Below, one piece after another: positions 4,510 through 64,000 of a DNA stretch of 64,000 nucleotides (positions within the stretch are counted from its first letter, which is position 1; each line of letters starts with the position of its first letter). The notes under the pieces were generated by a model. That model was given only the letters and a program-made list of their open reading frames with translations, did not search any database and was not told the origin of the DNA. Position numbers and translations under genes: made by a program. The stretch spans positions 248,001 to 312,000 of the forward strand of contig JAKSZP010014446.1 in NCBI GenBank assembly GCA_022478985.1. Reading direction: 5' to 3'. This stretch comes from Massospora cicadina (taxonomy: Eukaryota; Entomophthoromycota; Entomophthoromycetes; Entomophthorales; Entomophthoraceae).

Positions 4510-6290
4510 TAATTTTAACAACTATTGAATGGCATCTACTCCATTAGAGGCAGCTCCATCCACACTTGCGCATCTTTGGTGCCTTCCATGATGTGGGATT
4601 TATTTACTTCATCCCTACAACACTTAGGAGAATTGGCTTTGGGTAATGAACACTATCTCTGAAGCTTCATCTATCCAGCCATAAACCACCTCATACAAGT
4701 AGTCAGGTTTAATCACCAGGAAGTATACCAACAACTAGGGCTTACTAAAACTTAACACTTAAATATTGTCAATTTCTATAATGCGGCCTCCTCCTTGATT
4801 CACAACAATTGGAAAGCTATTGTCATTAACCATCAGTTAGTCAATGAGGGATTTAATTAACTCATTATGCTAGATAATAGAATTTCGTGTTACCTTGAGG
4901 ACCAGCTTTTTCAAAAACTTGAAGCTACTTGAGGCCTCCTGGAACCAACACCTCACCCATATTAAAGAAATTGTGCAGACCTTCCGCATCACTACCAGGA
5001 GTTGGCCTCCCGTGATATCGCCTCTGGGAGTAAAGGGGCTGAGGGCTCAAGTGACCAGAAGAATCAGTAGTCCCTGAATAGCAAAAAGGGCCTGAAGGTC
5101 CCCTTGGGCCACAAGGACCTTCTGGTCCCACAGTGCCTACTCCTGGTGATTCCAATGACTTCTGTAGATAAAGATATTCTAATGGTTCTTGCTGCCTTAT
5201 GATCATATATGCAATGTAAATCAAGGATGCAAGCTCCGAGTATACAGAGTTCCTCTTGATCCCAGAGTCTTGATCAATGCTTTGTTGGACAAGATGGATA
5301 ATATCAGTGCATTTACCAAACTCAATGATAAATTCACCACCCAAAATGAACAAACCTGTAACAGGTTTTAAACTCACTTAAGGAACTTCAAGAGTCAGCT
5401 GCTCCTCCAACGTGTTGAAATTCAAGTACTGAAGGAGAAGATTTCCCATAAAGCCTCCTTGATATCTCTAAACCGAAATTGGGATGAGATTTCAGGAGGA
5501 TCTGGCAGGATTAAGATGACTATTGGATCAAAAGGCCCCTCACGACTATGTGGAGACTAAGTTCTATGAGCCTGCACTGGTTTTTGGTATAAATACTTTT
5601 TTCACCCCAATTTGTGCATAAATTTAAGCCTAGAGAAAGGAGAAATTTACTCCACATCAGAAAATATCGCATCCTTCCTATACGCTTATGAGAGCTTAAT
5701 GGAAGAGGCCACCTACCATCAGAAGTTGAAGCATATCCACTCCTTTTTGGATAGCGTTCCTGGGAGATCATAACTCCCCATTTAAAGTAATGTCACACCT
5801 GGGATAAAGTCCATACCCCAATTCCGGGAATTTGGAAGGAACCAAACCTTAGCCATTCTGAAGCAGGCGCCCATGACATTCATTTGAACAATGGACTAAG
5901 TCCAGTTGAGTTCACCGGCTAATACTATGCTCACGCAAAACCTTTGGCAACCACTAATCGCATTACCTTGGACGACGCCATAACAGTTGTCATCTCCACG
6001 TTGGGATCTTATCCTGAGGTCCAAATGCACATAAATGACAAGAAGCTCACTTAGCCTGCATCTAGGAAATTAAGGAAGCATCTAATTAAATTTCTGCGTC
6101 TATCTTTCATCTCAAGTCCTCTGCATCATTTACCTCCAGCTGTCCTCCAGTCCACGTTGTTGAGAAACAGAAGAATTCCAGATCTCTATGCTCCTACTGC
6201 AATGAATTCTGTCATAGCGCCAAGACTTGTTAGGAAATATTTCGGTAAGGAGGCGGTAAAATGGCAGTCAGTATGTGAGATGAGGCACTT
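4510..6290 (+). pseudogene. Gag of element O (collagen-like, CCHC), decayed
   Basis: The nucleocapsid-capsid precursor, packaging the element RNA in family members. The frame is fragmentary, but the order matches C and D: an N-terminal region, a collagen-like stretch at about 5030-5155, a capsid-like region, then a CCHC zinc knuckle at 6189-6230 reading CSYCNEFCHSAKTC. That knuckle keeps all four metal ligands (C-x2-C-x4-H-x4-C), unlike the knuckles of C and D, each of which has lost one cysteine. Multiple stops and frameshifts throughout. Confidence 0.65.
5030..5155 (+). other. Collagen-like Gly-X-Y stretch in O Gag
   Basis: Bases 5088-5129 read GPEGPLGPQGPSGP, five uninterrupted Gly-X-Y starts, followed by a decayed tail. 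Upstream, GSKGAEGSS in another frame looks like further eroded triplets. Position within Gag matches the longer collagen-like domains of C (52686-52868) and D (24044-24227). Confidence 0.7.
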
Positions 6291-17479: not shown

Positions 17480-18278
17480 AAATGGGTGCCTGAAAATTTG
17501 CTTGTAAACTTGCATTAAGGCACCTTCTTGCGTAAGTGCCACAAGTCCAACATGACGTGTGAACCTTTATTTATCTCATTATTGGAGACACTATCAATCT
17601 TCAAAACGTTTATAATTGCTAATGACCTTATTTAAATAGTCCTGAACCAAGTACTAGGTGGCATAAATGCTTTGAGAAAGTCTGCTGCAGCTGGTACCTC
17701 TGGGCAAAGGCATGGGCCAACCGAAAATAATAGGGCGTCTGCCAAGGTAGCTTGGTATGGGGCGAAGTCTGTTGTTGCATAAGTTCCATTATTGTATGCA
17801 AATTGGGCGAGCAGAAGGTCGTCCGCCCAGGTATCCCAAGCAGCTGTAGTATAGCATAGCAGATATTGTTCCAAGTTTTGATTGACCCGTTCATTTTGAC
17901 CATCATACTGAGGATGGTATGTGGTGAAGTGACAGTGCACAATTTCAAAATCACCAAGAGTTCGTTCCAAAACAGCTCAATAAATTGGGACATGTTGATG
18001 ATTTCCTGAGGGAGTCCAAACAGAGAAAACGTGCCTAAAAACAGGCTAGTGATCTCCTCTGAGGTGATGGCTGAGGAGCAAGGGATAAACAAAGAAAATT
18101 TAGTGAAGCAGTCTACAATCATCATGACTGCTGTGAACCCATTGGAGCTTGGTAGCTCAACAGTAAAAACCATGGACACCGACGTCCATTGCCCCTTCGC
18201 CCGCTGCAAAGGGTAAAGAAGACCATTTTTACCCAATTGGACCAATTTGGCCCATGCATAAGTTATGCAGTTGGCAAT
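17480..18278 (-). pseudogene. Integrase of element B, second part
   Basis: Resumes after D with ANCITYAWAKLVQLGKNG (A: TDCVTCAWAKLNLSGKNF). SMVFTVELPSSNGFTAVMMI is the first catalytic region, with the Asp replaced; IVDCFTKFSLFIPC follows, and FGLPQEIIN marks the second. DGQNERVNQ, read in another frame near 17895, keeps the Glu. The region beyond LFSVGPCLCPEV is the C-terminal part. Several frame changes. Confidence 0.8.
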
Positions 18279-18899
18279 TATTGGAATTTTGTGAGAAATC
18301 ACAATAAGCAGGTGCTATGAAGGCTACAAAATAAAAAGTTCCATGGCTCTAGAAAAGATCAACACAATTTCAACGAAGTTATTAGTTCCGTTGCTATAGT
18401 AGGTTCCAATTGGAAATACAGAATCCTGTATAAATAGATCATAATTGGGCTATGTGAGACAAGAATTGAGATACTTTATTAATTAATACCCCAGAGATAT
18501 TTATAGGGGAAAATTTTGTGGTTCTTCATGAGGATTTCCGTGATTCACTCAAGTTAAGATATTTCCTACCAGAGGACCAATATTTTTTATTATCACTATT
18601 ATTAAAAGACTTGTGATTATCAGATCTAATAGAGCTCTTTTAGATGTGATCAACCTTTTTAGCGAGGACTTAGCCCCTTTGATATAATTGGTCATTTCAG
18701 ATTGCTTGGTCATCTTGGATTGCTGAGATTCTTCAGATTGGTTAGACTCACCCATTGTAGAAGGTCAATAGCTCCGAAGGGTCTTTCTTCAGTCAAATTG
18801 AGAATCAAAATGCCTGTTAGGAATTTTTCAATTTCATTAGACCAAGATATCAAATCTCTATCTGGAGTAATTTTGGTCATCTTAGTTGTATCTCCAACA
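18279..18899 (-). repeat. 3' LTR of element D
   Basis: 621 bp. On the minus strand it starts TGTTGGAGATACAACTAAG and ends TTCTCACAAAATTCCAATA. Pairs with 25043-25663 and with both C LTRs. Confidence 0.92.
18549..18755 (-). CDS. U3 reading frame in family II LTR (68 aa)
   Basis: Unrecognised peptide: a Ser/Gln/Glu/Lys-rich start with a repeated QSE(E/M) unit (NQSEESQQSKMTKQSEMT), then GAKSSLKRLITSKRA and a hydrophobic run (LDLIITSLLIIVIIKNI) that could span a membrane. A same-length version is in the other D LTR (25312-25518) and homologous versions are in both C LTRs. In C the frame is continuous with the end of the pol region, so it may be a Pol C-terminal tail rather than a separate gene. 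Confidence 0.4.
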   Translation of the reverse strand: MGESNQSEESQQSKMTKQSEMTNYIKGAKSSLKRLITSKRALLDLIITSLLIIVIIKNIGPLVGNILT

Positions 18900-18915
18900 A
18901 TGCCCCCTCAAGATC
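18900..18915 (-). other. Polypurine tract of element D
   Basis: On the minus strand CTTGAGGGGGCAT directly precedes the LTR start TGTTGG. C has TTGAGGGGGGCAT at the same place. Confidence 0.7.
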
Positions 18916-18939
18916 TTGCCTAGGGGGTACATATCTGTG

Positions 18940-19950
18940 AAGAAACCTACTATGCACTCTATTGATAACAGTACCAGTATCAATAGCGGCAATGGATTAT
19001 TCCATACCCCAATGATAAATAATATGATAAGGACTAGCCTGTAAGGTGTTTAATTTGTGAATCCTTCCTCCCGGCCTATGTAGATAGAAAAGTACATGAT
19101 ATCCGACTTGATATTCTGGTGACGTAGGTTTACTAGCGTTGGTTCTGGTACCTTCCTTCAAGTTGGTAGCAGCAAGAGAACTTGAAGCTAATGCTTGTAA
19201 TCAGATGTTTTCATCAGTTAATCACCACATAGCTATATTGGTAGTTTGTGGGGCAGCCTCTTCAAGTATAGGTTGTACACTTGAGGGGAGTATAGGTTCC
19301 CAACCATATAAAGCTTTAAAAGGAGACATTCCAATAATATGATGATAGCTAACTCTATAAGCTAACATCGCACTAGGTAAGTAAATGTTTCACCTACTAG
19401 GATCATTGGAGGCCATCTTTCAAAGAATGGCTACAAGGGTACCATTTGCCCGTTTGACTATACCATTAGTAGAAGGATTATAAGGGGTTGTAAAGTACTA
19501 ATAAGTACTACTAGTTTGGTAAGCTCAGCTACCACCTGAGAAATAAAGTTGGTCCCATTATATGATAACAGGACTTTTGGGCTACCATGCCTGATGAAAA
19601 CTTGCTTAAAAAGAAAAAAACACCGTCACCTTGGCAGTAACTGTGGAAACTGAAATAGCTTCAATCTATTCAATAAGAATGGTTGATAGCTAACAGAATA
19701 TATTGATGTCCATAGGTGGCCATAGGGAAAGGACCCACCACATCAATACTTATAATAGAGAAGGGTTTGGAAGGTCCCACAATTTGATGTTGGAACGTAG
19801 GATTTCCACCACGTTGTTGTTGGCACTTAAGACAAGATTCCAGAATCATGTACAGATTTCAGCATGTTATCCCAGTAACAATGATTCTTTAACCACTGTA
19901 GTGTCTTAGTGACAGCTCCATGACCTACAGCTTGGTGGGCCTTCATAATA
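18940..19950 (-). pseudogene. Integrase of element D
   Basis: On the minus strand: HHCC region with HQAVGHGAVTKTLQWL near 19930, then the catalytic core, and NPSTNGIVKRANGTLV near 19460, where the expected catalytic Glu codon is AAA (19453-19455). C has the same Lys. The C-terminal part ends in VPPRQDLEG just before the polypurine tract. Frameshifts split the core. Confidence 0.8.
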
Positions 19951-20043
19951 GTATCAGTCCTCGCAGAGGGCCAAATAAAGGGCAACCACTATGATCATGA
20001 CTTTTTATATATAATGAACCTATTTTAACCTGAGTGTCTTTGG

Positions 20044-20571
20044 TTAAGGATTGTAGCTTCGAAGTACCATCCTTAGATTCATACAACAGAGCTCAGGTCT
20101 ACTGTTCAGGTCATAAATGTGATCTTCCTCTGCAGAGAATAAGGTTAAGATAGGCAATTGAGGAAAGCCAGTGTTTTGATGTATAGCTCCAGTGCAATGT
20201 TGAATAGTAAAGTCATAATTTTGGAGCTTTAAAGTCCATCTAGCTAAGCGCCCATCAGGATCCTTCATTTGTTGAAACCACTTCAGGGAAGCGTGATCCG
20301 TTATAATAGTGAAATGTTTGCCATATAGATAAGGGCGAAAATGCTTGACAGTGGATAAAACAATGAGACATTCACTTTCAGTAACGCTATAATTGCGCTC
20401 AGCCTTAGAAAGGGTTTTACTATAGTATGCAATGGGTAGATCAACCAGATTACTATCATGTTGAGCCAGAATGGCCACAATAACAATATCACTGGCATCA
20501 GTAAATAGTATAAAAGGTTTGAAAAAGTCAGGATGGGCTAAGACGGGGGCACTCATAAAGGCTTGATGCAA
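20044..20571 (-). pseudogene. RNase H of element D
   Basis: Long open stretch of 175 codons: FILFTDASDIVIVAILAQHD (first catalytic Asp), PIAYYSKTLSKAERNYS, ECLIVLSTVKHFRPYLYG, FTIITDHASLKWFQQM and GRLARWTLKLQNYDF, all classic Ty3 RNase H features in order. It is better preserved than its neighbours. The Trp of LKWFQ is a TAG stop in C. Confidence 0.88.
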
Positions 20572-21930
20572 CAGATCAAAGGATATTTAATGTAATTCTT
20601 TCCATACAAAAGGGACTTCTTTATGCAAAAGGAAATTAAAGGTTCTATAATCTCTGCAAATGGGGATGAATTGTTGATAATAACCAACCATCCCTAAAAC
20701 ACTTGGATATTTTGCAAGCTTTTAGGAGCTGGAATGTCAGAAATAGCTTGTATCTTATTTTATTTTATTTAACCGAGGCAAGCCAACCAGGGGACAGGCA
20801 TTACCAAAAGAAAAAAATGACATGAAACCTGAACAGGGCCAACTCCATCAAAGAAAGTTTTTCCACCTCCGGATTGGGACTCAAATTTTTCTGGTTACAT
20901 CGTGGGTAAGGTTTTCATGTTATTAGACCTACTAACCGCCAATAGCTTCCTTTGGCTGGCACCCCAATCGATGTGTGAAGGGTGGGAATCGAACCTGCAA
21001 CCTTCAGGTTGGTAGCCATACGCCCTCACTGACTTGCCTTCCACCCCCTAATAGCTTGTATCTTATTAGATAAGGGTAAAATACCTTCGCTTTTAACTTT
21101 ATGTCCCAAAAATTCCATCTCAGTTTTAAAAAGCACACTTTAACGGTTTAAGCTTAAGCAAGGCATGATGAAGTCAGTTATTAACTTCCTTTGCATGAGC
21201 CAAATGCTCATTAAAAGTGCGTGAAAAAACAGTATCATCTAGATAATCTAAAACACAAAAAAGTTTCAAATACCCAAACAAGTCATCCATGGCTCATTGA
21301 AAAGTAGCAGGGGCATCGCAAAGCCCATGCAGCATACGAGTTGGCTCAAATAGCCCCTCACTATAAATTAGAGCACATTTTTGACAATCTTCCAGGTCAA
21401 GATCAATTATACAATAACCACTCGCAAGGTCCATAGCAGAGAAGTATTGTGATCCAGTCAATAATCTCAATGAATCATCTATGAGAGGTAGAGGAAAAGA
21501 ATCCTTTTGAGTAACAGCATTAAGTCGACAATAGTCCATAATCACTCTATGCTCTTATCCTTTTTTGGATGAGTAGTAGAGGGGAAGCCCATAGACTCTT
21601 AGAAGGCATTAATAACCTGGCATCGAGGAGTTGTTCCAGTTCCATGGAGACCTGAGCCTCCTTGACTTTGGATTTGTGATATGGTTAAGATCAAATAGGG
21701 GGAGTATCCCTGGTTTTCACCTGATGCTGTACCTCTTACATTAAACCAAAATCCCCTGGACCTTGGGCAAAGATATCCACATATTTTTTAATCAGGGCCT
21801 CATCTTCAAGCTGTTGATCTGAAGTAAGTGAATCCCCAAATTTGACGTCAATTCTACAATGAGAGGGGATCTTCCAGCCCAAATTCGCGTAAATCTCCAC
21901 ATCCTGAGACATATAATATGTCATTCACAG
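20572..21930 (-). pseudogene. Reverse transcriptase of element D, with a SINE inside
   Basis: On the minus strand: ELEQLLDARLLMPSKSLWAS near 21620, YFSAMDLASGYCIIDLDLED near 21425 (motif A), MLHGLCDAPATFQ then TGA then AMD near 21300 (motif B with a stop where O has Arg), and DYLDDTVFSRTFNEH with catalytic YLDD at 21231-21245. The connection region is interrupted by the SINE at 20760-21049. Confidence 0.87.
20760..21049 (-). mobile_element. tRNA-derived SINE inside element D
   Basis: 290-bp insertion flanked by an exact 18-bp target duplication, AATAGCTTGTATCTTATT, at 20742-20759 and 21050-21067. Read on the minus strand, the head is tRNA-like: GGTGGAAGGCAAGTCAGTG (A-box region) and GGTTCGATTCCCACC (T-arm/B box; B box at 20985-20995). 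The tail is AAATAAAATAAAATAA at the 3' end, as expected for LINE-driven retroposition. Sister element C (55851-55868) shows the unoccupied site with one copy of the 18 bases. About 200 bases of non-tRNA body follow the head. It is not a functional tRNA gene: no clean acceptor pairing, and an extended body. Confidence 0.88.
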
Positions 21931-22119
21931 TAGTAGGCCGCACATATGCGATGGAATTATTGAGATTTAATTGCATAGGTCAGGAAGTGAGATTAGCCAG
22001 TAGAATTGAAACAGTCCCATCATAGGCAGGATTAAGGATACCCAGTCATGGTAAGGCCTCCAAATGAGAGAGATTTTTTTACCAAAGATCTCTAATACAT
22101 GATCAGGGGGTAAAAATAC

Positions 22120-22670
22120 TTGTACTCCCATATCAATTATGACTTAAGCTTTTGGGGAATGGTAATCAGAGAGTTAGAATATAAAGGCATTCCCTCAGAG
22201 GAACAATCTGACAGAGGTGGAAGTATAATCCTTAGTCCTAAGATTCGGTATTTGAGACGTGAGATAGAAGTGGGGTATTCCAGTAAGCAAACACGTTGTT
22301 TGAGTTTGCCTTTACTATTGAGAACATCCTGTAAGATTAAAGGTACTCGGTACCCTATTAAAGAAAGGTATTTTTCTTTAAGACTGATTATTGCACCAAA
22401 AGAGGTGAGAAACTTAGTTCCTAAGAGCAGATCATAGCAGTTGATATTCAATACCATTGCAGGGGCTGTCACAACCAACTTTCCAAAGCGCATTGGAAGA
22501 GAGGAATAAGCTCCTATAGACCTAGTGTAGGAAGGTCTAGAAGAACCATAATCTTGGGAATGGTTCAGGTCTGGAGCCAATTTGATTTTCTTCATAAGTT
22601 TGGACGAGATTACATTGATGGGTGATCCTGTATCATGATAGTCAAAACTTTTACCTTATTCACAATGACT
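22120..22670 (-). pseudogene. Protease region of element D
   Basis: On the minus strand DTGSPINVISSKLMKKIKLA near 22645-22590 is the aspartic protease active site and flap region, then NCYDLLLGTKFLTSFGAIIS matches the ILLGxxFL part. An intact D-T-G-S is present, while C has lost it. Confidence 0.75.
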
Positions 22671-22779
22671 TCCACCCGGGTTACATCAGTGCCAAATTTT
22701 AAGATTGAGAATAATGAGGGATTAAACATTTGAATGAAATTAGAAGAAAAAGAGAAAGCATAAACAGAAATAGAGTATT

Positions 22780-24985
22780 AGTTAGATAATTCATCAGGGA
22801 TATTAAACTCATCAGGAGCGGATAACACATAGCAATCGGGTAGAAGAATCAAAAGGTTTTGACTGAGGCACCTGAGGTATGTCAGCACAGGGAGCCTCGT
22901 GCCATATTCTGACTCCTCTTTTTTGATTCCTCCACTTGCTTTTTCCAACATTGGGATACCACATGACCCACGAGACCACAATAAGTATATGACCCCTTCT
23001 TCAGTTTGGATTTAGGCTTATGTGGCATCGAATGGATGTGAGAATGAGGGCTACTAGAGGAGGTTGGATGTACACCCCATTATAATCTCCATAAGCTCTT
23101 CTTTGATGTCAATAATGGAGCTGAAATTTCTTTTAAGTCGTTGCAAGTGTAGTAGTAACTGAGTGTGAGAACCGAATGCACTCATTACAGCTGATATAGC
23201 ATCATCAATAATGATCTGGTTAATAGTAGCATGTGTCTGGGCCTTATGTAGAATCGTTTAGTGAATTCCTGGATAGACTTCCCTCATTTAATTTAAATAC
23301 TAATAAAAGCTTGCTTTTGGTTGGAAAGGATTTGATAACTCACAAATTCCTATATGAGGGCGGTTTTCTCTTGAGCCCATGTAGTGCGAACCTTAAGATG
23401 AGGAACCATGATCTCTTGAGCAAACTGGCTTAGGCAAGAGGTGATATGTCAGACCTTCTGTTGATTAGTAGCTCCATCATCGGGCGTTCATAAATGAAAA
23501 GAAAAGAATGGATGCTACCTTCACCCAGTTCAAACTTATCCTTGAGGGTAGGTTTGAAAGGGGTGACTTTAGTGTTCAAGATGTGTACAACCAAAACCGT
23601 GACTAGTCCAGCCTCGGAGGGTTCAGACTCTGTGAAATGGGCATGAGGGGGAACTCAGTCAACTTGTTGTCCCAAGAGTTTATTAATCATCTTGTAAATT
23701 TTGAACCCATTAGTTAAGATAAACATTTGTAGGAGCTCAGTTTAAGTTGGAAATCGCAGTAACCATCTCAATTTGCTTGGTCTTGAGTACTTCACATTTG
23801 ACAGCCAACTGCTCAATGGACACTGTCAATGAAGCAAACCGGGTTTCTTGAGTAGTTTGATTTGCATCGCATAGCAGATGCGCATTCTCAACACCATCCA
23901 GTAAATTAATTAAAGAATAGTCTGGATCAGTCAAAGACCTTCCAAGGATAAGAAACACCCTTGAGCTATGGCTTGGATAAGTGTTTCTAATGCTTATACT
24001 CGAGATACTAGTAGCATCAAAGGTTCAGAATCAGACATTGGAAGCGAGGAGCCAGGGGGACCAGGATGTCCCGGGGGTCCTGGTGACCCATCTCTACCTG
24101 ATGGTCCCAGCGGGCCTTGTTTACCCACAGGACCAAGGGGATCACATTCCCCAAAAGGTCCTGGATTTACCAATGGGGAGCTAGGTGGTCTAGGAGGTCC
24201 AGGAAAACCAACAGGGCCGGGTTCACCTTCTATGATATTACCAACCACTTGGACAAGATGTTGGGTTAACCCATTAAGCTCCCCCAAGCTCTTCTCATGT
24301 TCAGCCCACAACTGATCCAGTTGTCTCTTAATCTCATCCTCTGAGGAGGTAATCCAGTGGTGAATAGGGTTAATGGCATTGCTAACTTGATGAGATACTT
24401 CTTGTCCAATGTATCCCTCAACTCCATTATTAATTCTCACCAACTGGTTATAATCTTGTTGATTTCTTTTCTATTATCATGAATGGACTCTCAATTATCC
24501 CTTCCAAAGTTGGATGCCATTTCATAAAATGAAGATAGTTGAGCATGAAATTGTTGCGCTAGAGTCAACTGGCGCTGAATTTCGAGATCCTGCAACCCCA
24601 AAAACTGGAGTAAATGGTTAATAGCAGGATGTATATAATGCCGGAGATATTGCTCAGTTATAGTCGAACCAACTTCAGTAGGCTGTAACACTCAGTTATA
24701 TAGGTTCATCATGTTGTCAGCAACTTTAGACGCCCAGTCATTTTTAGGGCGAGCACCAGGCTGAATAGCCCCTCTGATCAAGCTTTTAACGGTTTCTTCA
24801 ACATTTGTGGCTTAAATCTGATAATTAGATTGGTCAGAACCCTCGATGGCCAAGTTCATTGAAGCTTAAAATTAGAGATTATTGATATTAAAGGAAGGCA
24901 AATCTTGCTGGTTATAGTGTACCCAATGGGTAGTACTCAACAATTCCTCCAAAGAGGGGCTCTCTTCGCTATATGTATTCATCAT
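22780..24985 (-). pseudogene. Gag of element D with collagen-like domain
   Basis: On the minus strand the product would start MNTYSEESPSLEELLSTTHW near 24981. Blocks in order: N-terminal helical domain (NVEETVKSLIRGAIQPGA, LRHYIHPAINHLLQFLG), a coiled-coil-like stretch ([35 protein letters not shown]), the collagen-like domain (24044-24227), a second helical stretch with SIEQLAVKCEVLKTKQIEM, a capsid-like part (GATNQQKV, TTWAQEKTALI) and a zinc knuckle YTYCGLVGHVVSQCW near 22960 in which the first Cys is Ser. Several stops and frameshifts. Gag normally forms the virus-like particle; the collagen part is unusual. Confidence 0.75.
24044..24227 (-). other. Collagen-like Gly-X-Y domain in D Gag
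   Basis: On the minus strand [12 protein letters not shown] opens the domain, then RPPSSPLVN (Gly lost, and a non-collagen interruption at the same place as in C), then [20 protein letters not shown] and [11 protein letters not shown]. About 60 residues, most in Gly-X-Y register, Pro-rich at X and Y. Two Gly positions kept in C are Arg and Asp here. Confidence 0.88.
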
Positions 24986-25024
24986 TGTGAAAGTATGTTT
25001 TCACCAGGTAGCCTCAGAAGCAGA

Positions 25025-25042
25025 CCTGACAGGGAGCACCAG
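25025..25042 (-). other. Primer-binding site of element D
   Basis: On the minus strand CTGGTGCTCCCTGTCAGG directly follows the 5' LTR. It shares TGGTGCTCCCTG with C and TGGTGCTC with O. Confidence 0.65.
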
Positions 25043-25663
25043 TATTAGAATTTCGTAATAAATTATGATAAGCAGGCACTCTGAAGGCTACAATATTATT
25101 AGTTCTGTGGCTCTAGCAAAGATCAACAAAATTGCAACGAAGTTATTAGTTCTGTTGCTATATTAGTTTTAATTTGATTTAAAGAATCCAGTATGAAATA
25201 GATCAAAATTAGGCTACACGAGACAAGAATTGAGATAAATTATCAATTAAAAACCAGAGATATGTATAGGGGAAAATTTTGTGGTTTTTCACGAGGATTT
25301 CTGTAATTCACTTAAGATAGGATCTTTCCTACCAGAGGACTGATATTTTTGATTATCATTATTATTAAAAGACTTGTGATGATCAGGTCTAATAGAGCTC
25401 TTTTAGATGTGATCAACCTATTTAGCGAGGACTTAGCCCCTTTGATATAATTGGTCATTTCAGATTTCTTGGTCATCTCAGAATGCTGAGCTTCTTCGGA
25501 TTGGTTAGACTCACACATCGTAGGAGGTCAATAGCTCCAAAGGGTCTTTCTTCAGTCGAATTGAGAATTGGAAATACCCATCATGAATTTTTCAATTTCA
25601 TTAGACTGAGTTATTGAATCTCGATCTGGAGTAATTTTGGTCATCTTAGTTGTATCTCCAACA
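25043..25663 (-). repeat. 5' LTR of element D
   Basis: 621 bp, minus strand TGTTGGAGATACA to TTCTAATA. Carries another copy of the 68-codon U3 frame (25312-25518). The outer end abuts GCAAT (25664-25668). Confidence 0.92.
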
Positions 25664-25668
25664 GCAAT

Positions 25669-50579: not shown

Positions 50580-51249
50580 TCAAGGGGAGGTATGTTGTTG
50601 ATTAATGACTCAAATCAAAGTAATCAAAAATCTTGCCTCTTTCCTTGGGTCTTCCTAAAAGAAACGCCAAAAACTCTTTGCTGTCTCATTATCAATTGTT
50701 TGGCTTTCCCTTTGAGACCCCAAACCTTCCAGAATCTTCATGTGCATGCCCTTACCTTTAATAAGTTGTTGCCCTAAAACTGAAAACTAGGTACTCTTTA
50801 TACCCTATGTACTCGCTGTATATCAATCTTCCCTTGGGACATCTTTGTTCTAGGGCTAAAGGATCAAGTATAAGTATTCCACAATAATCCAGTGAGATAC
50901 ACCCTTTACCAAAATTCAGATGGTTTTTTAGAAGTCCTATCTGGAAGTTGAGTTTACTATACCTGGGATTATAGGAAGCAGATCTCAAAGAGTGTAAAAG
51001 GTCGGAAGATCAAGAGGATCAAGCGAGTTCTATGGTGGTACTTTTACCTGTGCTGTAGTGTGCATTTTCGTGCACAAACTGATGAAAACGCCTGTAACAA
51101 ACACAATGACTAGAATTTCTTAGGAATAGCCATTTATTACTGGTAGTTCACACCTAAATACAGTTACATTTTGTAAACCTCATTTTGGACTTCTGAGAAA
51201 AACATGCGCTGCTTACCTGAGATAAACAGTGCTATAATTCCTTTGACAC
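50580..51249 (+). repeat. Polypurine tract and 3' LTR start of element E
   Basis: CAAGTCAAGGGGAGG followed by TA and TGTTGTTGATTAATG (from 50592) looks like a polypurine tract abutting an LTR start with TG. The LTR end and partner are not found. The last five bases (GACAC, 51245-51249) are the left target copy of element C. Confidence 0.45.
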
Positions 51250-51869
51250 TGTTGGAGATACAACTAAGATGACAGGAATTACTTCAGACCGAGATTTGAT
51301 ATCTCAGTCTAATGATATTGTAAAACCCATGACAGGTATTTTTAGTTCTCAATTTGACCGAAGAAAGACCCTTTGGAGTTATTGGCCTCCTATGATGAGT
51401 GAGGCTAAGCAATCTGAAGAAGCTTAGCAATCTGAGACGACCAAGCAATCCAAAATGACCACACATTTTGAAGGGGCTAATCCCTCGCTAAGAAGGTCAA
51501 TCACATCTAACAAGAATAATAAATTGGATATGACCATCACAGATATTTTAATAAGAATAATAATCAGCAATTTGTCCATTTGTTAGAAAAAATCTTAGCT
51601 CAGGTGAGTCATGGAAATCCTCGTGAAGAACCACTAAATTTTCCCCTGCAAATATTTCTGGATTTTAATTAATAAAGTATCTCAATTCTTGTCTCATGTA
51701 GCCTAATTTTGATTATTTCATTCAGAATTCTGTATTTCTGGTTGGAAAAACTATAGCAACGGAACAAATAACCTCATTACACTTGTGTCAATCTTTGTTA
51801 GAGCCACAAAACTAATAATTTTGTAGCCTTTGTAGTACCTGCTTATTTAATTTCTCACAAAATCCAATA
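51250..51869 (+). repeat. 5' LTR of element C
   Basis: Starts TGTTGGAGATACAACTAAG and ends CACAAAATCCAATA, so the ends are an imperfect inverted pair TGTTGG/CCAATA. Contains the U3 reading frame interrupted by TAG. AATAAAG near 51671 is a poly(A)-signal candidate. Confidence 0.92.
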
Positions 51870-51928: not shown

Positions 51929-54066
51929 ATGAATACATCAAGCAAAGAGAGCACCTCTTTGAAGGAATCTTTGATTATCACCCAATGAGTACACTCTAAC
52001 TGGCAATATTGCCTTCTGCTAATATCAATAATCTAAAATTTCAAGCTTCAGTGGACTTGGCCATTGAGGGCCCTGACCAATCTAATTATCAGATTCAAGC
52101 CGCAAATGTTGAAGAAACCGTTTGAAGCTTGATCAGAGGGGCTATTCATCCTGGTGCTCGCCCTAATCGTGGATGAGCGTTTAAAGTTGCTGACAACATG
52201 ATGAACTTATATAGCCAAGCGGTGTTACAGCCTACTGTTCTGGTTTGGCTAGAACTGAGCAGTATTTCCGGCATTATGTACATCCTTCTATTTACCATGT
52301 ACTCCAGATTTTTGGGTTACATTATCTTCAAAAATCCAGTGCCAGTTGACTCTAATGCAACAATTTCGCTCTCAACTATCTTCATTTTATGAAATGACAT
52401 CCAACTTTGGAAGGTATAATTGAGAGGCCATTCTCAATAAAAGAAGAGGATCAATAATATTCATAACAAGTCGGTGAGAATTGGTAATGGTTGTGGGATA
52501 CATCGACCAAGAAGTATCTCATCAAGTTAGCAATGCCACTAACCCTATTCACCACCGGATTACCTTCCTGGAGGATTAGATTAAGAGAAAACGGGATCAG
52601 CTGCGGGCCAAACATGAGAGAGAGCTTGGGGGAGCTTAATGGGCCAACCCAACATCTTGTCCAAATGGTGGGTAATATTAGAGAAGGTGAACCCGGCCCT
52701 GTTGGTCCTCCTGGACCACCGGGACCATCTAGCTCCCCAGTGGTAACCCTGGGACCTCCTGGTGAACATGGTCCTCCTGGTCCAGTGGGTCAACAAGGCC
52801 CGCCAGGACCATCAGGTAGAGATGGGTTGCAAGGACCCCGGGCCCTCCTGGTCCCTTTGGCTCCTCACTTCCAAAGTCCAATTTTGAACCTTCGATGCTC
52901 CTAGTATTTCAAGTACAGGCATTAGAAACACAAATATTGGCCATAGCTTAAGGGTGTTTCTTATCCTTGGAAGGTCTTCTGACTGATCTAGACTATTCCT
53001 TAATCAATTTACTGTATGGCGTTGAGAATGCACATTGTCTATGCGATATAAATCAAACTACTCAAGAAACCTGGTTTGCTTCATTGACAGCGTCCATTGA
53101 GCGGTTGGCCACCAAATGTGAAGTAATTGAGACCAAGCAAACGGAGATGGTTACCACAATTTCCAACTTAAACCGAGCCCTATGAAGGACCATCTTAACC
53201 AATGGGTTCAAAATTTACAAGATGATTTGAACCTCTTGGGACAACAAGTTGACTGAGTTCCCCCTCATGCCCATTTCACAGAGTTTGAACCCTCAGAGGC
53301 TGGACCAGTCACGGTATTGGGCGTACACATCTTGAACACTGAAGCCACCCCTTTCAAACCTAGCCTCAAGGATAAGTTTGAACCAGGTGAAGGTAGTATC
53401 AATTCTTTTCTTTTCGTTTATGAACGTGCAATGGATGGAGCTACTAATCAACAGAAGGTCCGCCATATCACCTCTTGCCTAAGACAGTTCTCTCAAGAGA
53501 TCATGGTTCCTCATCTTAAGGTTTGCACTACGTGGGCTCAAGTGAAAACCGCCCTCATAAAGGAATTTTGGAGTGATTAAATATTTTACAACAAAAAGAA
53601 AGCCTTTATGAGTATTCAAATTGAACGAGGAGAGTCTATCCAGGAATTTGCTAAATGATTCTATCATGAGGCCCAGACACTTGCTACTTGCAACTGGATT
53701 ATTGTTGATGATGCTATATCAGCTGTAATGAGTGCATTCGGTTCTCACACTCAGTTACTACTTCACTTTGAATCACTTAAAAGAAATTTTAGCTCCATTA
53801 TTGACATCAAAGAAGCACTTATGGAGATTCCTAATGGGGTGGTACATCCGACCTCCTCTAGTAACCCTTGTTCTCACATCCATGCGATGCCACCTAAACC
53901 CAAATCCAAATCAAAGAAGGATCAGTGCACTTATTGTGGTCTTGTGGGTCATGTGGTATCCCAAAGTTGGAAAAAACAAGTGGAGGAATCAAAAAAGAGG
54001 AGTCAGCATAGGGCACGAGGCTCCCTGTGCTGGCATACCTCAGGTGCCTCAGTCAAAACCTTTTGA
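51929..54066 (+). pseudogene. Gag of element C with collagen-like domain
   Basis: Gag would form the particle shell. It starts MNTSSKES at 51929. Blocks: N-terminal helices (NVEETV-stop-SLIRGAIHPGA), a helical stretch ending [15 protein letters not shown], the collagen-like domain (52686-52868), a second coiled-coil-like part (SIERLATKCEVIETKQTEM), a capsid-like domain (TPFKPSLKDKFEPGEGSINS, LFVYERAMDGATNQQKV, TTWAQVKTALIKEFW; 53317-53580), then a zinc knuckle QCTYCGLVGHVVSQS at about 53924-53968, where the fourth ligand Cys is Ser. Several stops and frameshifts, fewer than in D. Confidence 0.82.
52686..52868 (+). other. Collagen-like Gly-X-Y domain in C Gag
   Basis: [15 protein letters not shown] (five perfect triplets), a seven-residue interruption (SSPVVTL), then ten perfect triplets beginning [15 protein letters not shown] and continuing [16 protein letters not shown] one-base change near 52840 then shifts the frame; the remaining [11 protein letters not shown] is readable in the next frame, as in D. 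Pro is common at X and Y, as in bacterial and viral collagen-like proteins. The preceding helical stretch could serve as a trimerisation seed (inference). Confidence 0.93.
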
Positions 54067-55229: not shown

Positions 55230-55920
55230 ACCATATCACAAATCCAAAGTCAAGGAGGCTCAGGTCTCCATGGAACTGAAACAACTCCTCGATGCCAGGT
55301 TACTAATGCCTTCTAAGAGTCTATGGGCTTCCCCTCAACTACTCATCCAAAAAAAGGATGGGGGCATAGAGTGGTTATGGACTATTGTCAACTCAATACT
55401 GTTACTCAAAAGGATTCTTATCCTTTACATCACATAGATGATTCATTGAGATTATTGACTGGATCACAACACTTCTCAGCCATTGGCCTTGCGAGTGGTT
55501 ATTGTAGAATTGACCTTGACCTTAAAGATTGTCAAATATGTGCTCTAATTTATAGTGAGAGGCTATTTGAGCCAACTCGTATGCTGCAAGGGCTTTGCAA
55601 TGCCCCTGCTACTTTTCAATGAGCCATGGATGGCTTGTTTGGGTATTTGAAACTTTTTTGTGTTTTAGTTTATCTTGATGATGTTACTGTCTTTAACGCA
55701 CTTTTAATGAGCATTTGGCTCATTTAAAGGAAGTTAATAACTGACTTCGTCGTGCCTTGATTAAGCTTAAACCATCAAAGTGTTCTTTTTTAAACTGATA
55801 TGAAATTTTTTGGACATAAAGTTAATCGCGAAGGTATTTTACCCTTATCTAATAAGATACAAGCTATTTCTGACATGCCTGCTCCAAAAAGCTTGCACAA
55901 TATCCAATTGTTTTAGGGAT
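55230..55920 (+). pseudogene. Reverse transcriptase of element C
   Basis: VSMELKQLLDARLLMPSKSL near 55270, HFSAIGLASGYCRIDLDLKD near 55470 (motif A; the catalytic Asp of MDLAS is Gly), MLQGLCNAPATFQ then TGA then AMDGLFG near 55580-55640, and VYLDDVTVF with YLDDV at 55671-55685 intact. GILPLSNKIQAISDMPAP is the connection region and carries the empty SINE site (55851-55868). Confidence 0.87.
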
Positions 55921-56042
55921 GGTTGGTTATTATCAACAATTCATCCCCCATTTTGCAGAGATTGCAGAACCTTTTTGTTTACCTTTTGCATAAAGAAGTC
56001 CCTTTTGTATGGGAAAAATCACATTAAATACCCTTTGATCTG

Positions 56043-56570
56043 TTGCGTCAAGCCTTTATGAGTGCCCCCGTCTTAGCCCATCCTGACTTTTCCAAACCTT
56101 TTATACTATTTACCGATTTCAGTGATATTGTTATTGGGGCCATTCTGGCTCAACATGTTACCAATCTGGTTGATCACCCCATTGCATACTATAGTAAAAC
56201 CCTTTCTAAGGATGAACGCAATTATAGTATTACAGAGAGAGAATTCCTCACTGTGTTATCCACTGTCAAGCATTTTCGCCCTTATCTATATGGCAAGCAT
56301 TTTACTATAACGGATCACGCTTCCCTGAAGTAGTTTCAACAAATGAAGGATCCTGATGGGCGCTTAGCTAGATGGGCTTTAAAGCTCCAAAATTATGACT
56401 TTGCTATTCAACATCGCGCTGGAGCTATACATCAAAACGCTGATGGCCTTTCTCATTTGCCTATCTTAACCTTATTCTCTGCAGAGGAAGATTGCATTTA
56501 TGACCTGAACAGTAGACCTGAGCTCTTTTGTATGAATCTATGGATGTTATTTCGAAGCTACAATCCTTAA
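56043..56570 (+). pseudogene. RNase H of element C
   Basis: FILFTDFSDIVIGAILAQHV (catalytic Asp kept; the usual DAS is DFS), PIAYYSKTLSKDERNYS, EFLTVLSTVKHFRPYLYG, FTITDHASLK then TAG (Trp in D) then FQQMKDPDGRLARWALKLQN, and HQNADGLSHLPILTL. Near-intact apart from the TAG near 56331 and one small deletion. Confidence 0.88.
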
Positions 56571-56579
56571 CCAAAGACA

Positions 56580-57650
56580 CTCAGGTTAAAGAAGGTTCAT
56601 TATATAAAAATTCAGGATCTAAGTGGTTGTCCTTTATTTGGCCCTCTGCGAGGACTGATACTATTATGGAGGGCCACCAAGCTGTAGGTCATTGAGCTGT
56701 CACTAAGACACTACAGTGGTTAAAGAATCATTGTTACTGGGATAACATGCTGGAATCTGTACATGATTCTGAATCTTGTCTTAAGTGCCAACAACAACGT
56801 GGTGGAAATCCTACGTTCCAACATCAAATTGTGGGACCTTCCAAACCCTTCTCTACTATAAGTATTGATGTGGTAGGTCCTTTCCCTATGGCCACCTATG
56901 GACATTGATATATTCTGTTAGCTATCGATCATTTTACTAAATGGATTGAAGCTATTTCAGTTTCCACAGTTACCGCCAAGGTCACGGTGTTTTTTTCTTT
57001 TTAAGCAAGTTTTCAACAGGCATGGTAGCCCAAAAGCCCTGTTATCAGATAATGTGACCAATTCATTTCTCAGGTGATAGTTGAGCTTACCAAACTATTG
57101 GGTACTTATCAATCCTTTACAACCCCTTATAATCCTTCTACTAATGGTGCGGGCAAACGGGCAAATGGTACCCTAGTAGCCATTCTTTTAAAAGTTGACC
57201 TCAAATGATCCTAATAGGTGGAACATTTACTTACTTTTTGCGATGTTAGCTTATAGAGTTATATATCATCATATTCTTGATATGTTTCCTTTTAAAGCTC
57301 TATGTGGTCGAGAACATATCCTCCCCTCACGTGTACAACCTATACATTGAAGAGGCTACCCCACAAACTACCAATTCAGCTACTTGAAGATTAGCTGATG
57401 AAATCATCCAATTACAAGCATTAGCTTCAAGTTACCTTTCTGCTACCACTTTGAAGGAAGGAATCAGAACTAACGCTAGTAGAACTACATTACCAGAATT
57501 TCAAGTCAGGCCTCTTGTACTCATCTACCACCATAGGCCTGGAGGAAGGATTCACAAATTGGACACCTTATGGGCTGGTCCTTATCATATTATTTATCAT
57601 CAGGGTAATTAATACTTCAGTGCACTATTGATACCGGTATTGTTATCAAT
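56580..57650 (+). pseudogene. Integrase of element C
   Basis: HQAVGH and CLKCQQQRGG supply the HHCC zinc site near 56680-56810. ISIDVVGPFPMATYGH near 56865 carries the first catalytic Asp, LAIDHFTKWIEAISVSTVTA follows, SDNVTNSF near 57040 the second, and NPSTNGAGKRANGTLV near 57140 has Lys (AAA, 57155-57157) where Glu is required. LIYHHRPGGRIHKLDTLWAG near 57520 is the C-terminal part. Stops at about 56695, 56908 and others. Confidence 0.87.
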
Positions 57651-57653
57651 AGA

Positions 57654-58049
57654 GTGCATAGTAGGTTTCATCACAATTATGTGCCCCCTAGGCAAGATCT
57701 TGAGGGGGGCATTGTTGGAGATACAGCTAAGATGACCAGAATTACTTCAAAACGAGATTTGATATCTCAGTCTAATGATATTGTAGAACCTATGACAGGT
57801 ATTTCCAGTTCTCAATTTGACCGAAGAAAGACCCTTTGGAGTTATTGGCCTCCTATGATGAGTGAGGCTAAGCAATCTGAAGAAGCTCAGCAATCTGAGA
57901 TGACCAAGCAATCCAAAATGACCACACATTTTGAAGGGGCTAAGCCCTCGCTAAGAAAGTCAATCACATCTAACAAGAATAATGAATTGGATATGACCAT
58001 CACAGATATTTTAATAACAATGATAATCAGCAATTTGGCCATTTGTTAG
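57654..58049 (+). CDS. Pol tail running into the U3 of the 3' LTR (131 aa)
   Basis: A frame that starts in the last internal bases (SRFHHNYVPPRQDLEGG, over the polypurine tract) and continues about 110 codons into the LTR: ISSSQFDRRKTLWSYWPP, SEAKQSEEAQQSEMTKQSKM, GAKPSLRKSITSNKNN, then the hydrophobic MTITDILITMIISNLAIC. Homologous frames exist in both D LTRs and, with a TAG, in the 5' LTR of C. The internal start codon may not be real; the frame is probably the Pol C-terminus or a reinitiated small protein. Function unknown. Confidence 0.45.
   Translation: MHSRFHHNYVPPRQDLEGGIVGDTAKMTRITSKRDLISQSNDIVEPMTGISSSQFDRRKTLWSYWPPMMSEAKQSEEAQQSEMTKQSKMTTHFEGAKPSLRKSITSNKNNELDMTITDILITMIISNLAIC
57698..57712 (+). 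other. Polypurine tract of element C
   Basis: CTTGAGGGGGGCAT directly before TGTTGG at 57713. Confidence 0.7.
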
Positions 58050-58334
58050 AAAAGATCTTAGCTCAGGTGAGTCATGGAAATCCTCGTGAAGAACCACTAA
58101 ATTTTCCCCTACAAATATTTATGGATTTTAATTAATAAAGTATCTCAATTATTGTCACACATAGCCTAATTCTGATCTATTTCATACAGAATTCTGTATT
58201 TCTGGTTGTAAAAAACTATAGCAACGGAACTAATAACCTCATTACACTTGTGTCAATCTTTGAAGAGCCATGAAACTAATAATTTTATAGCCTTTGTAAC
58301 ACCTGCTTAAGTAATTTCTCACAAAATTCTAATA
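57713..58334 (+). repeat. 3' LTR of element C
   Basis: 622 bp, TGTTGGAGATACAGC to CACAAAATTCTAATA, followed by GACAT. Pairs with 51250-51869. Confidence 0.92.
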
Positions 58335-60394: not shown

Positions 60395-61430
60395 TTGGAT
60401 AATCACACACAGGAAAGATGGGCGACTTTATTAACAAAAATAATACAACATGGGCAAGCATTGTGGCAAGCGGTGCGCTTAACGGTGCAACTAAGGGCAA
60501 GAAACGCCCTGGAGGGGGACCAGGAACCCAAGCCAAAAAAATCGCAAACTCAGACACTGTCTGGGTTTATGGTAAATAATGTAAAGCACGCGCAATACAT
60601 GTACATTCAATTCAACCAACCTTTGTCAAAGGTGGAACATGGGATCTGACTCTTCCTTGGGGATGAGTCACCGACCCTGTGGGAGAAAACATGTGAGGCA
60701 CAGCCCTCACTTTTCCCTCACGCGGTGTATGTAGCCACCAACAACATGGGCCGCGGCTGAATTGATATTGGTTCTAAAACAGCTAATGAAGCTGATGCTG
60801 CAGCAAAAATCTGCGTGGAAATTGCCCTCCCTGAGGGCAAAAAATTGTGCGCACCGTGCACACCAGATGGAACAAAGCAAAAACTTTGTTCATCTCCTTT
60901 GACTCGCTCCCCACCAACCTTTCTTGTAAGGTAATTGAGGAGGAGCTCCGCAAAGGTCTTGTGGCCTACGGAGAAATCCAACAACTCAAATTACAGCGAT
61001 TTTGCTTAATGCCTGACCTGTGCACGGGCAAAGCTATCGCTGTAATCAACCCCTTCCCAGAAGTGGAAGAGGATTTATCCAGAATTCCCCATGCAGCAGA
61101 ATTTCACTTCACAGATGGGGGCCAGTTGGCTGCATTCCAAGCTACACCAGAACATGCACCACCCGTTTGCAACCACTGTGGCTCACTGGGACACAAGGAA
61201 CATGCATGCCCTGTAAAAGAGGGCTTAATGGAAAATGATTTTTGTGAAGAAGCTATGGACGAGGATAATGAAAGCTTCACCAAAATGACTGATGGCCACC
61301 ACCCATTCCGCTGGGGTGAAGATGGACTATACTCCATCGTGGACCCAGTTACAAGCAAATAGCATAAGGCAGCACAAAAAGCCTGCAAGATAGCAGCGGC
61401 TGAAGCGGTGGCACACGCGGAATACGCCAT
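60395..61430 (+). pseudogene. LINE ORF1 (Gag-like, CCHC)
   Basis: Binds LINE RNA in related elements. It starts MDNHTQERWATLLTKIIQHG at 60395, with stops TGA at 60647 and 60758. At a run of six A (60839-60844) the frame changes; from 60847 it is open for 171 codons: FISFDSLPTNLSCKVIEEEL and GKAIAVINPFPEVEEDL resemble an RRM-like fold, and VCNHCGSLGHKEHACPVK at about 61165-61215 is one CCHC zinc knuckle (C-x2-C-x4-H-x4-C). An acidic region follows. After the TAG at 61360 an Ala-rich helix continues. Confidence 0.8.
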
Positions 61431-61839
61431 TAACCACTGACAAATTCAGGAGGATATTTCAGATATTCACCGAACCAACTAATCAGAAAAATATGCCCAG
61501 GTTGAAAATTTTCATAGTAACTAGACTGAGCCACAAAGTGTCATCAGTCATGCACATACTGAGGAACAATTCAACCGCAATTTGGGTGAAAATGCGGTGC
61601 ACAATGCAACAAAGTTGAGCCTCAAAAATATAAAATCCAATTAACAACCCGCATCAAATCAACATGAGACCTGTGCAGGAAAAGTTGATGCAAATGCAAA
61701 AAACCGCAATTCCCTTGAATCATTGGGTCAGATCAAGGGAACCAACAATGGCAGTGAAAGAGTTGGAGTACAGACGCAGAGCATGGCCAAAATGAGCCGC
61801 GGTGGGATAGGACCAGAGGGTCCTCCCAACCACTCCTGA

Positions 61840-62620
61840 GGCGCCACGGGCACCTCAGTGTCAATAGGGACATTAAATATCGTGGGAGCCAGGGCTCATA
61901 CGTCCCAAGCCAAAAAGCTGGCATTCTTGCAAAAACCTCTTGTAGACATCTTGGCCATCCAAGAAACCCACTGCCTACAAGGGGAAGAAGAATCCTGGTC
62001 AACCAGGGTCGCACCATCACAATCAGTATGGACGTCTCACTGTGGGGTGATAGTCCAAAACAACAAAAAATTTAAAATTACAAATTCATCATCACACTTG
62101 CATGGTTGAGTCCTGGTAGCAACAATCACATGCCAAGATGAAATAATTTTGTTATCATGAATCTACGCACCATGCACTGCAACTGAGTGAAAAAAATTTT
62201 GAAAAAATTTCTACTCTCACCCTCCCACCAGATATCATCATGTTAGGCGATATCAACTGCTGGGATAACCCCAATACAGATCGATGGCCTAATCCCAGGG
62301 GATACCCACCTGGACACATTGAATATCTCACAATGAAGGCATCTTTTGGCTTACAGGATGCTCTTCCCCCCAATTCATCAATCCTTCCCCATATGACAAG
62401 ACCCAACATATGTGAGGGACTGCTCATATTGATGAGTCGTATTGACCACATCCTCATCCCACAATCCCACCACTCAAGAATCTCCAAAAATACAACAAAG
62501 ATCAATTTTTCTGATCACCGATTAGTTATGGTGCAGTTAATGCCAACCCAATCCCACACACAGGTGACGCCTTGGAGAAAGCTTCACCCAGAAAATCTAA
62601 GATTGCCTGAGATATCTAAT
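61840..62620 (+). pseudogene. LINE ORF2 endonuclease domain
   Basis: APE-type nuclease that nicks the target. SIGTLNIVGARA opens the fold (motif with the first Asn), LAIQETHCLQGEE near 61950 holds the metal-binding Glu, IMLGDINCWDNP near 62237 the GDxN motif, LMSRIDHILIPQ near 62430 the SxxDH-preceding strand, and FSDHRLVMVQL near 62509 the catalytic SDH. A frameshift lies in A-rich sequence near 62190, with stops at 62107 and 62158. It is in the same frame as the open part of ORF1. Confidence 0.85.
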
Positions 62621-62739
62621 TAGGTTAAAACAAGGCTACAAACCCAGCATTCACAGCCCCATTCACTTTGGATCCCATCAGAACATGGGAAAATTTCAAA
62701 AAATATTTAATCAACAAAACCTGATATATTGCATCATGC

Positions 62740-64000
62740 AAGTACACCGCGGACACAGCCACAATCAAGCGTACCTTGGCAGAACTAGACCACCTGGAAA
62801 TAAATACTCTGAAATCTGGCTATAGCCCTAATTGGGGATGCAAATGGGCAGAAATTTTAGCCCGACTTAACAATCTCATCTTTGAACACCAACACAGAAT
62901 CAAAGTATCAAACAAAGGTAGGTTTATAAAGGAAGGAGAAACCTGTTTGACATACTTTTTCCACCAATTCCACTCCTGCGGAAACCAGCCCACATGCACA
63001 CAGGTCCGCAAGACCAACGGCACTGTGGCAACTGACCCTGAGGAGGTCAAGGTGGAAGTACACCGCTATTACACCAAATTATATCGCGATATGCCAACAG
63101 ATCCACAAAAAATTAAAGAAATTTATTCAAAATGCCAAGATATAAAGTACACCACCAAATTACAATATACTATCCCTTATCACACGGGAGGAGCTTTGGG
63201 AAACAATTCGCGGTGCACCACGTAGGAAATGCTCAGGGCCTGATGGGATACCCTACAAATTTTACAAAAAATATTTTCAACAAATTGCCCCCCTCCTATT
63301 GGCGTCAATGAACCAGAGTTTGTTGGAAACACGCCTATTACCAGGAGGCCATGAATCCTATGTTATAACCTTGTATAAAAAGGGTGACAAGTTGGACCTG
63401 GCCAACTGGCGCCCAATTGCACTCTCTAACTCTGACACAAAAATTCTAGCAAAAATCTAGCAGCTAGATTAGGCGCAATTGCATCTGACGTCCTATCACC
63501 CAACCAGTTTGGGTTTATACCAGGGCGTTCAATCTGGAACAACATACACCCTGTTGCAAACATTTGCCAATCCAAAGCAACTGGTGCCCTGGTCTTCTTG
63601 GATCAGGCTAAGGCGTATGACCGTGTTAGCTGGCCATACCTAAAAGAATGTAAACTTGCCTTCAATCTCCCACCAAGATTCATAAAATGGGCGATGCTCC
63701 TAACAGAATCTGCAACCATGGCTGTATGCGGCCCTGGATTCCTAACAAACAATATCAAACCACACAGAAGGCTCAAACAAGGGGATCCCCTCAGCCCACT
63801 GCTATACAATTTCAGCTTTGACCCGCTCCTCCAAGTAACTGACTCACGTCTCATGGGGATAACCGCACAAGGACAACCAACAGTCAAGATACTGGCCTTT
63901 GCAGATGACTGCGTAGAAGGTATAGCAACCAATGAAGATGCCCGACAGCTGGAACACACTCTAGAGGAATACTCCAAGGTGAGCAATGCATCGCTCAACA
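62740..64000 (+). pseudogene. LINE ORF2 reverse transcriptase domain (partial)
   Basis: Target-primed reverse transcriptase. FEHQHRIKVSNKGRFIKEGE near 62880, CSGPDGIPYKFYKKYF near 63232, YVITLYKKGDKLDLANWRPI near 63360, PNQFGFIPGRSIWNNIHPV near 63500, FLDQAKAYDRVSWPYL near 63594 (catalytic Asp), RLKQGDPLSPLLYNFSFDPL near 63768 and LAFADDCVEGIA near 63895 (catalytic FADD). From about 63457 to the window end the frame is uninterrupted. Frame changes near 63200 and 63455. Confidence 0.9.

Follow-up and report, generated by a model that had tools for sequence, protein, structure and literature searches.

The window, by which we mean the whole 64-kb stretch of DNA analysed here, holds a retroelement that we call element A, bounded on the plus strand by a 5' LTR at 51247..51869 (outer ends approximate), of which 51247-51863 forms a direct repeat with 57710-58327, and a 3' LTR at 57710..58334. 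These LTR-like repeats are 93.5% identical over 619 bp, with a start-to-start spacing of about 6.46 kb, and both carry 18-bp tandem repeats of a similar unit (57870-57924 and 51407-51450). Between them, on the same strand, lie a reverse transcriptase fragment at 55317..55619 (PF00078, 30.5 bits against a cut-off of 29.6), an RNase H fragment at 56028..56330 (PF17919, 116 bits; PF17917, 96.1 bits; above the cut-off) and an integrase zinc-binding fragment at 56696..56905, the last scoring below its cut-off (PF17921, Integrase_H2C2, 22.2 bits against 25.5), and to judge from the two LTRs and the order of reverse transcriptase, RNase H and integrase, this is a Ty3-type LTR retrotransposon.

A broken Gag with a collagen-like stretch

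The gag part of element A, also on the plus strand, begins with an N-terminal helical, coiled-coil-like region at 52424..52679, located by tblastn with the open frame of a related copy (L003) and broken in frame. It continues through a collagen-like Gly-X-Y stretch at 52686..52841 and, in another frame, 52842..52868, into a second helical part at 52869..53173, located with the open frame of copy L004, which is 80% identical over 111 aa at 52841-53173. Next come a capsid-like region with internal stops at 53257..53655, recognised by its identity (49% over 72 aa, 52% over 125 aa) to the capsid of a second family of elements, and a CCHC zinc-knuckle-like motif at 53926..53967, which was found by eye and has lost one ligand; natural copy L045 has a knuckle that looks intact, again by eye, and Pfam did not call zf-CCHC over the motif in either copy. 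The sequence-only reading of this DNA had placed the collagen between two helical parts of Gag, upstream of a capsid-like region and a knuckle, and that is indeed the order seen in this Ty3-type element. It had also described the whole as Gag within a complete LTR-to-LTR element, and here the two LTRs and the reverse transcriptase, RNase H and integrase inside them stand, while the Gag is not intact, with its upstream helix, collagen and capsid in three different frames and with stops. Element A is a broken pseudogene, a dead copy, and the case for a collagen Gag rests on its relatives in the same genome, not on the copy in the window.

The Gly-X-Y stretch itself holds 5 + 10 strict triplets in frame 52491, as two blocks of 15 and 30 residues on either side of a single 7-residue interruption (SSPVVTL), and Pfam Collagen (PF01391) matches it at 28.2 bits against a cut-off of 27.2, so that the fifteen triplets with one short interruption first read from the letters were confirmed. 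The extent first given, 52686..52868, needs qualifying: one frame runs to 52841, and 52842-52868 requires a frame change in element A, although in copy B (below) and in L003 the two parts are in one frame. In family 1, as we call the window's family, the 7-residue interruption throws the Gly-X-Y register out of step, which tells against the reading favoured below. A chance origin of the run could be ruled out, since 30 order-1 Markov sequences of 64 kb, read on both strands, never gave more than four triplets (the longest run was three in 16 of them and four in 14).

Element A has company in the window. A second member of family 1, copy B, lies on the minus strand at 18279..25664 and is 87% identical to element A in two long pieces; its collagen stretch (24045..24227, minus strand, by triplet count) sits in a single open frame that takes in the upstream helix and reaches as far as the beginning of the second one. 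Near 5 kb, a Gag of a more distant lineage carries a run of five Gly-X-Y triplets at 5088..5132 on the plus strand (triplet count), its N-terminal part being 40.8% identical to that of locus L038 over 76 aa and its capsid 34% identical to that of L042 over 73 aa. A decayed Gag of a more distant lineage, at about 34.7-36.1 kb, shows by eye only scattered Gly-X-Y pieces. Of the remaining features, an integrase-like frame at 17631-18302 (minus strand; PF00665, 17.1 bits against a cut-off of 32.6) lies beyond copy B and perhaps belongs to another Ty3-like element. LINE-like frames were recognised by eye over 60847-64000, with an endonuclease-like frame at 62240-62623 and an ORF1-like protein at 60847-61362 whose CCHC-like motif scores below the zf-CCHC cut-off. 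The window as a whole has a CpG observed/expected ratio of 0.34 with an excess of TpG and CpA, as if methylated CpG were decaying, and Rfam at gathering scores found no match anywhere in it.

Relatives across the genome

The genome assembly that we searched comprises 1,469,884,898 bases in 16,968 contigs. It contains two matches to Chitin_synth_1, a fungal family, the best at 267.8 bits and the other with a 782-aa open frame; one match (L119), compared with the PDB, gives 177 and 167 bits to two chitin synthases, which we take to be the yeast enzymes, and 104 bits to others. These matches make a fungus the most likely host. The passages of the genome paper that describe the Massospora cicadina assembly give it as 1,488.88 Mb in 19,694 scaffolds with 41.1% GC, and put transposons at 92% of the genome and Ty3 at 73% of those transposons (PMC9584336).

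Searching the contigs with the PF01391 profile gave 6441 unscored first-look candidates, so the elements must be numerous; 150 candidates were scored and 145 reported, and the 70 reported loci that we examined (L009-L078) include 40 chosen partly for their long open frames. By tblastn, every one of the 70 has a Gag coil or capsid near the collagen, 66 have the capsid and 65 have both, and the four that lack a capsid, of which one lies where its contig stops, have Gag coils. The coil is of the family-2 type in 63 loci (including the distant L075), of the family-1 type in six, and of neither type in L038. That the collagen loci might be host collagen genes lying beside elements, or assembly chimaeras, is a reading whose probability we would put at practically nil: host genes were ruled out for the examined loci by these Gag matches (70 of the 145 reported loci, all positive), together with 39 of 40 copies that were picked by their capsid DNA and carry the stretch all the same.

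The relatives also supply the reading frames that the window copy has lost. Six copies (L019, L040, L042, L043, L053, L054) run from collagen to capsid in one uninterrupted natural frame, four (L003, L056, L063, L064) run from the helix into Gly-X-Y in one frame, and L004 does so from Gly-X-Y into the next helix, so that a stretch out of frame with Gag, which had been set as a test of the first reading, is not what natural copies have: they are in frame on both sides. Among the 70 loci, strict Gly-X-Y runs reach a maximum of 10-20 triplets per locus, and of at least 17 in 42 loci; most well-kept family-2 copies have 17-20 unbroken triplets, and the family-1 copies L056, L063 and L064 have 5 + 13. 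PF01391 scored above its cut-off of 27.2 in all eight copies listed (L003, L019, L038, L039, L040, L042, L064 and L075), at 27.5-38.7 bits.

The order within Gag is a conserved N-terminal helical domain, a coiled-coil-like helix, Gly-X-Y, a second helix, a capsid-like region and a zinc knuckle. In four Gag lineages the stretch falls between the common N-terminal domain and the capsid, a placement found in family 1, family 2, L038, L075 and the 5-kb copy, and between lineages the N-terminal domain is 28-47% identical (against family 2, over at least 60 residues) and the capsid 34-65% (over at least 70 residues). The second helix is matched in families 1 and 2, in L075 and weakly in the 5-kb copy, and tblastn gave no match to it in L038. 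L038 and L075 represent two more Gag lineages, whose Gly-X-Y stretches differ in composition and run to 18 and to 6 + 14 triplets, respectively. The helices on both sides of the collagen have a modest heptad periodicity (14-54 of 500 shuffles were as strong as the best windows), and the N-terminal coils of L003 and L024 have a periodicity of 3.5 residues, matched by 16 of 500 shuffles in each, which fits coiled coils and does not prove them.

We call the capsid region capsid-like, an assignment made from its position, from homology between the lineages and from sub-cut-off scores to Retrotrans_gag (PF03732), which reached 15.9-20.8 bits in five of six capsid pieces against a cut-off of 24.1 and gave none in the window piece; in a separate run at E 1, L042 scored 13.3 bits and L040 and L019 had no match. 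A sequence search of the PDB with the capsid returned nothing below E 1.7, the single-chain AlphaFold models of Gag and of the capsid were too poor to use (mean pLDDT 44.5 and 47.2), and Foldseek with a predicted model of low pLDDT gave no match at E 0.001.

Selection on the glycines

Loci L009-L078 were found with a collagen model and are thus biased towards copies that have kept their glycines, so we took further samples by capsid DNA. The family-1 search gave 2105 candidates, of which 40 were scored (89-93% identical to the copy in the window, that copy aside), the family-2 search 2301, with 40 scored (92-95% identical to L042, itself aside), and for 20 of the 40 scored copies in each family, leaving out copies already sampled, we fetched the piece upstream. 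The collagen stretch is there in all 20 family-1 copies, though mostly deleted in L097, and in 19 of the 20 family-2 copies, L112 having no match over it. Of the 299 Gly codons that could be read in this family-2 sample, 282 still encode glycine. Among the 19 family-2 copies the gaps measure 27 bp in five cases and 54 bp in two, with five cases apiece of 1 bp and of 7 bp and single ones of 9, 23 and 24 bp. The collagen of L102, L111, L113 and L118 has one 9-residue (27-bp) unit fewer, and its Gly register is kept.

We compared the two capsid-picked families by codon position. In 18 Gly columns, positions 1, 2 and 3 differ between families in 16.3, 13.6 and 64.0% of comparisons; the corresponding figures are 41.6, 44.0 and 69.8% for X and Y columns, and 64.1, 53.4 and 77.3% for the flanks, whose helices are 22-29% identical between the two families. 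Positions 1 and 2 of the glycine codons are therefore held while position 3 varies widely, and the flanks vary widely at all three; this means purifying selection on glycine. The comparison is all-against-all among related copies, which are not independent, and an alignment made on protein is prone to pair Gly with Gly; the Gly register is, however, unbroken within each family taken separately, so the result does not depend on the alignment of single columns. Singletons at Gly codons, our gauge of decay after insertion, number 10, 10 and 7 at the three positions in family 1 and 4, 6 and 4 in family 2, which shows that such decay lacks the codon-position pattern seen between families. The free drift of the glycines, which the sequence-only reading had named as a result that would count against it, is thus not seen, and with the frame also fitting Gag, neither of its two warning signs appeared.

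Pairs of open copies tell the same story. For the collagen, all 15 pairs have an NG86 dN/dS of 0.13-0.45, and in the flanks it is 0.09-0.38 in the 13 of 15 where it could be computed; these are individual natural copies and not consensus sequences, the choice of open copies brings a bias, and some sequences occur in more than one pair. The Gly-column tallies of two pairs read with L064 (2/3/3 and 2/3/6) were left unused, being out of register past the 7-residue interruption. Within families, collagen variants common to at least three copies lean to third positions, with 83:30 among singletons against 26:24 among shared variants (one-sided p 0.007), which modestly supports constraint on the collagen; the same test on the Gly columns alone (p 0.055) or on the flanks (p 0.70) is not significant.

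These figures bear on two further ways of explaining the stretch. One holds that it is a neutral proline- and glycine-rich tandem DNA repeat that rides in gag and reads as Gly-X-Y by accident, and the 27-bp length steps in some copies, like the decay of glycine in dead ones, are what such a repeat might show. We reject it on the codon-position pattern and on dN/dS, which is below 0.5 in every pair, and consider it very improbable also in view of Tandem Repeats Finder, which at score 50 reported no array at 52686-52868, and of the recurrence of the stretch between the same domains in lineages whose N-terminal identity is so low. The other holds that the stretch is an extended spacer inside Gag that forms no triple helix, and this, while unlikely, deserves to be taken more seriously: a proline-rich Gly-X-Y chain is extended even when it stands alone, and X and Y vary a good deal between the families. 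A spacer, however, has no need of glycine in every third place, yet the Gly columns are held far tighter than X and Y, and the helices on both sides also speak against it. We conclude that, during the active life of the elements, selection maintained the glycines in a stretch that is present in several lineages and in frame with Gag on both sides.

A possible stalk on the particle

The reading towards which we lean, and which we hold to be probable, is that of a real collagen-like Gag domain in a large Ty3-type group, its glycines selected, with a trimeric stalk predicted N-terminal to the capsid. Known proteins offer partial parallels. Retroviral matrix (MA), as trimers, and the N-terminal Gag of foamy viruses, by coiled coils, oligomerise N-terminal to the capsid, and to our knowledge neither contains Gly-X-Y; the likeness is one of location in Gag and of oligomerisation, which for the present domain is a prediction. 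Phage tail fibres, bacterial Scl, collectins and MARCO have Gly-X-Y (PF01391), often beside a trimeric coiled coil, but these are extracellular or tail proteins, unlike Gag. Yeast Ty3 (Metaviridae) is likewise an LTR element with the order reverse transcriptase, RNase H, integrase, and its Gag3 has a capsid followed by a zinc knuckle and, as far as we know, no collagen. The Ty3 N-terminal stretch is short, at 36 residues by the structural passages of PMC6525542, whereas here it is long, with coils and a Gly-X-Y rod; in the same passages the residues before the Ty3 capsid run outward in the middle of the threefold and fivefold capsomers, and the sixfold positions appear trimeric (PMC6525542).

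The helices would gather three Gag chains and nucleate a collagen triple helix, giving a rod of perhaps 11-17 nm (from 13-20 triplets at 0.286 nm per residue). A stalk N-terminal to the capsid would leave from the outer side of a threefold capsomer, tie three subunits together and surround the particle with a brush. The simplest fit to the Ty3 arrangement would be a trimeric collagen stalk on each threefold capsomer; against it, such a stalk would sit badly with the symmetry of fivefold capsomers.

A protein search with the collagen alignment (A1) gave 422 hits among 8000 scored candidates; 119 of the 120 listed carry PF01391, collectins and MARCO being among them, and the 120 listed of the 422 gave no match at E 0.01 to six Gag coil and capsid pieces. 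One protein (P0024, Penicillium herquei, 544 aa) combines, by eye, a long Gly-X-Y region with a DTGS motif like that of an aspartic protease. In the PDB, nearly every row returned by a sequence search with A1 was a collagen. Neither the capsid region nor the coil-collagen region had a hit at E 0.001 in protein searches, and a 135-aa capsid/knuckle piece run against viral contigs gave seven pattern matches, none of them confirmed.

The nearest report among the open-access papers that our searches listed is the Entomophthora muscae genome paper, which notes PF01391 enrichment, raises the question of immune evasion and cites the collagen-like Mcl1 of Metarhizium (PMC11105155). What is shared is that the collagen-like protein belongs to a fungus that attacks insects, and E. 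muscae and Massospora are both entomophthoralean; the difference is that the paper reads the E. muscae proteins as a possible secreted cloak (PMC11105155), while the domain described here lies within the Gag of a retrotransposon. One might suppose that our domain serves as an adhesin or cloak away from the particle, in the manner of Mcl1, and not in assembly, given that Mcl1 helps fungal cells evade insect immunity (as cited in PMC11105155) and that the likely host is an insect pathogen, but the domain is fused to the capsid in natural open frames, and we judge the idea improbable.

Returning to the stalk, we would go further only tentatively, with a proposal that we think somewhat more apt to fail than to hold: that collagen was captured once before the families split, that the particles carry trimeric collagen stalks at their threefold capsomers, and that such elements may underlie the collagen enrichment in the related fungus. 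Gag capsids go far back in evolution and hosts have put them to uses of their own, yet their N-terminal extensions are poorly understood. A collagen-spiked retrotransposon particle would, if true, be a Gag architecture of which we found no description (nor any collagen in a Gag) by title and abstract among the open-access papers listed, and a selected collagen rod by the capsid would provide a naturally occurring example of a trimeric fibre borne on a capsid. For fungi of this kind, PF01391 hits may come from the Gag of transposons and not from secreted cloaks, and this bears on the guess of immune evasion that is made for Entomophthora muscae in its genome paper (PMC11105155).
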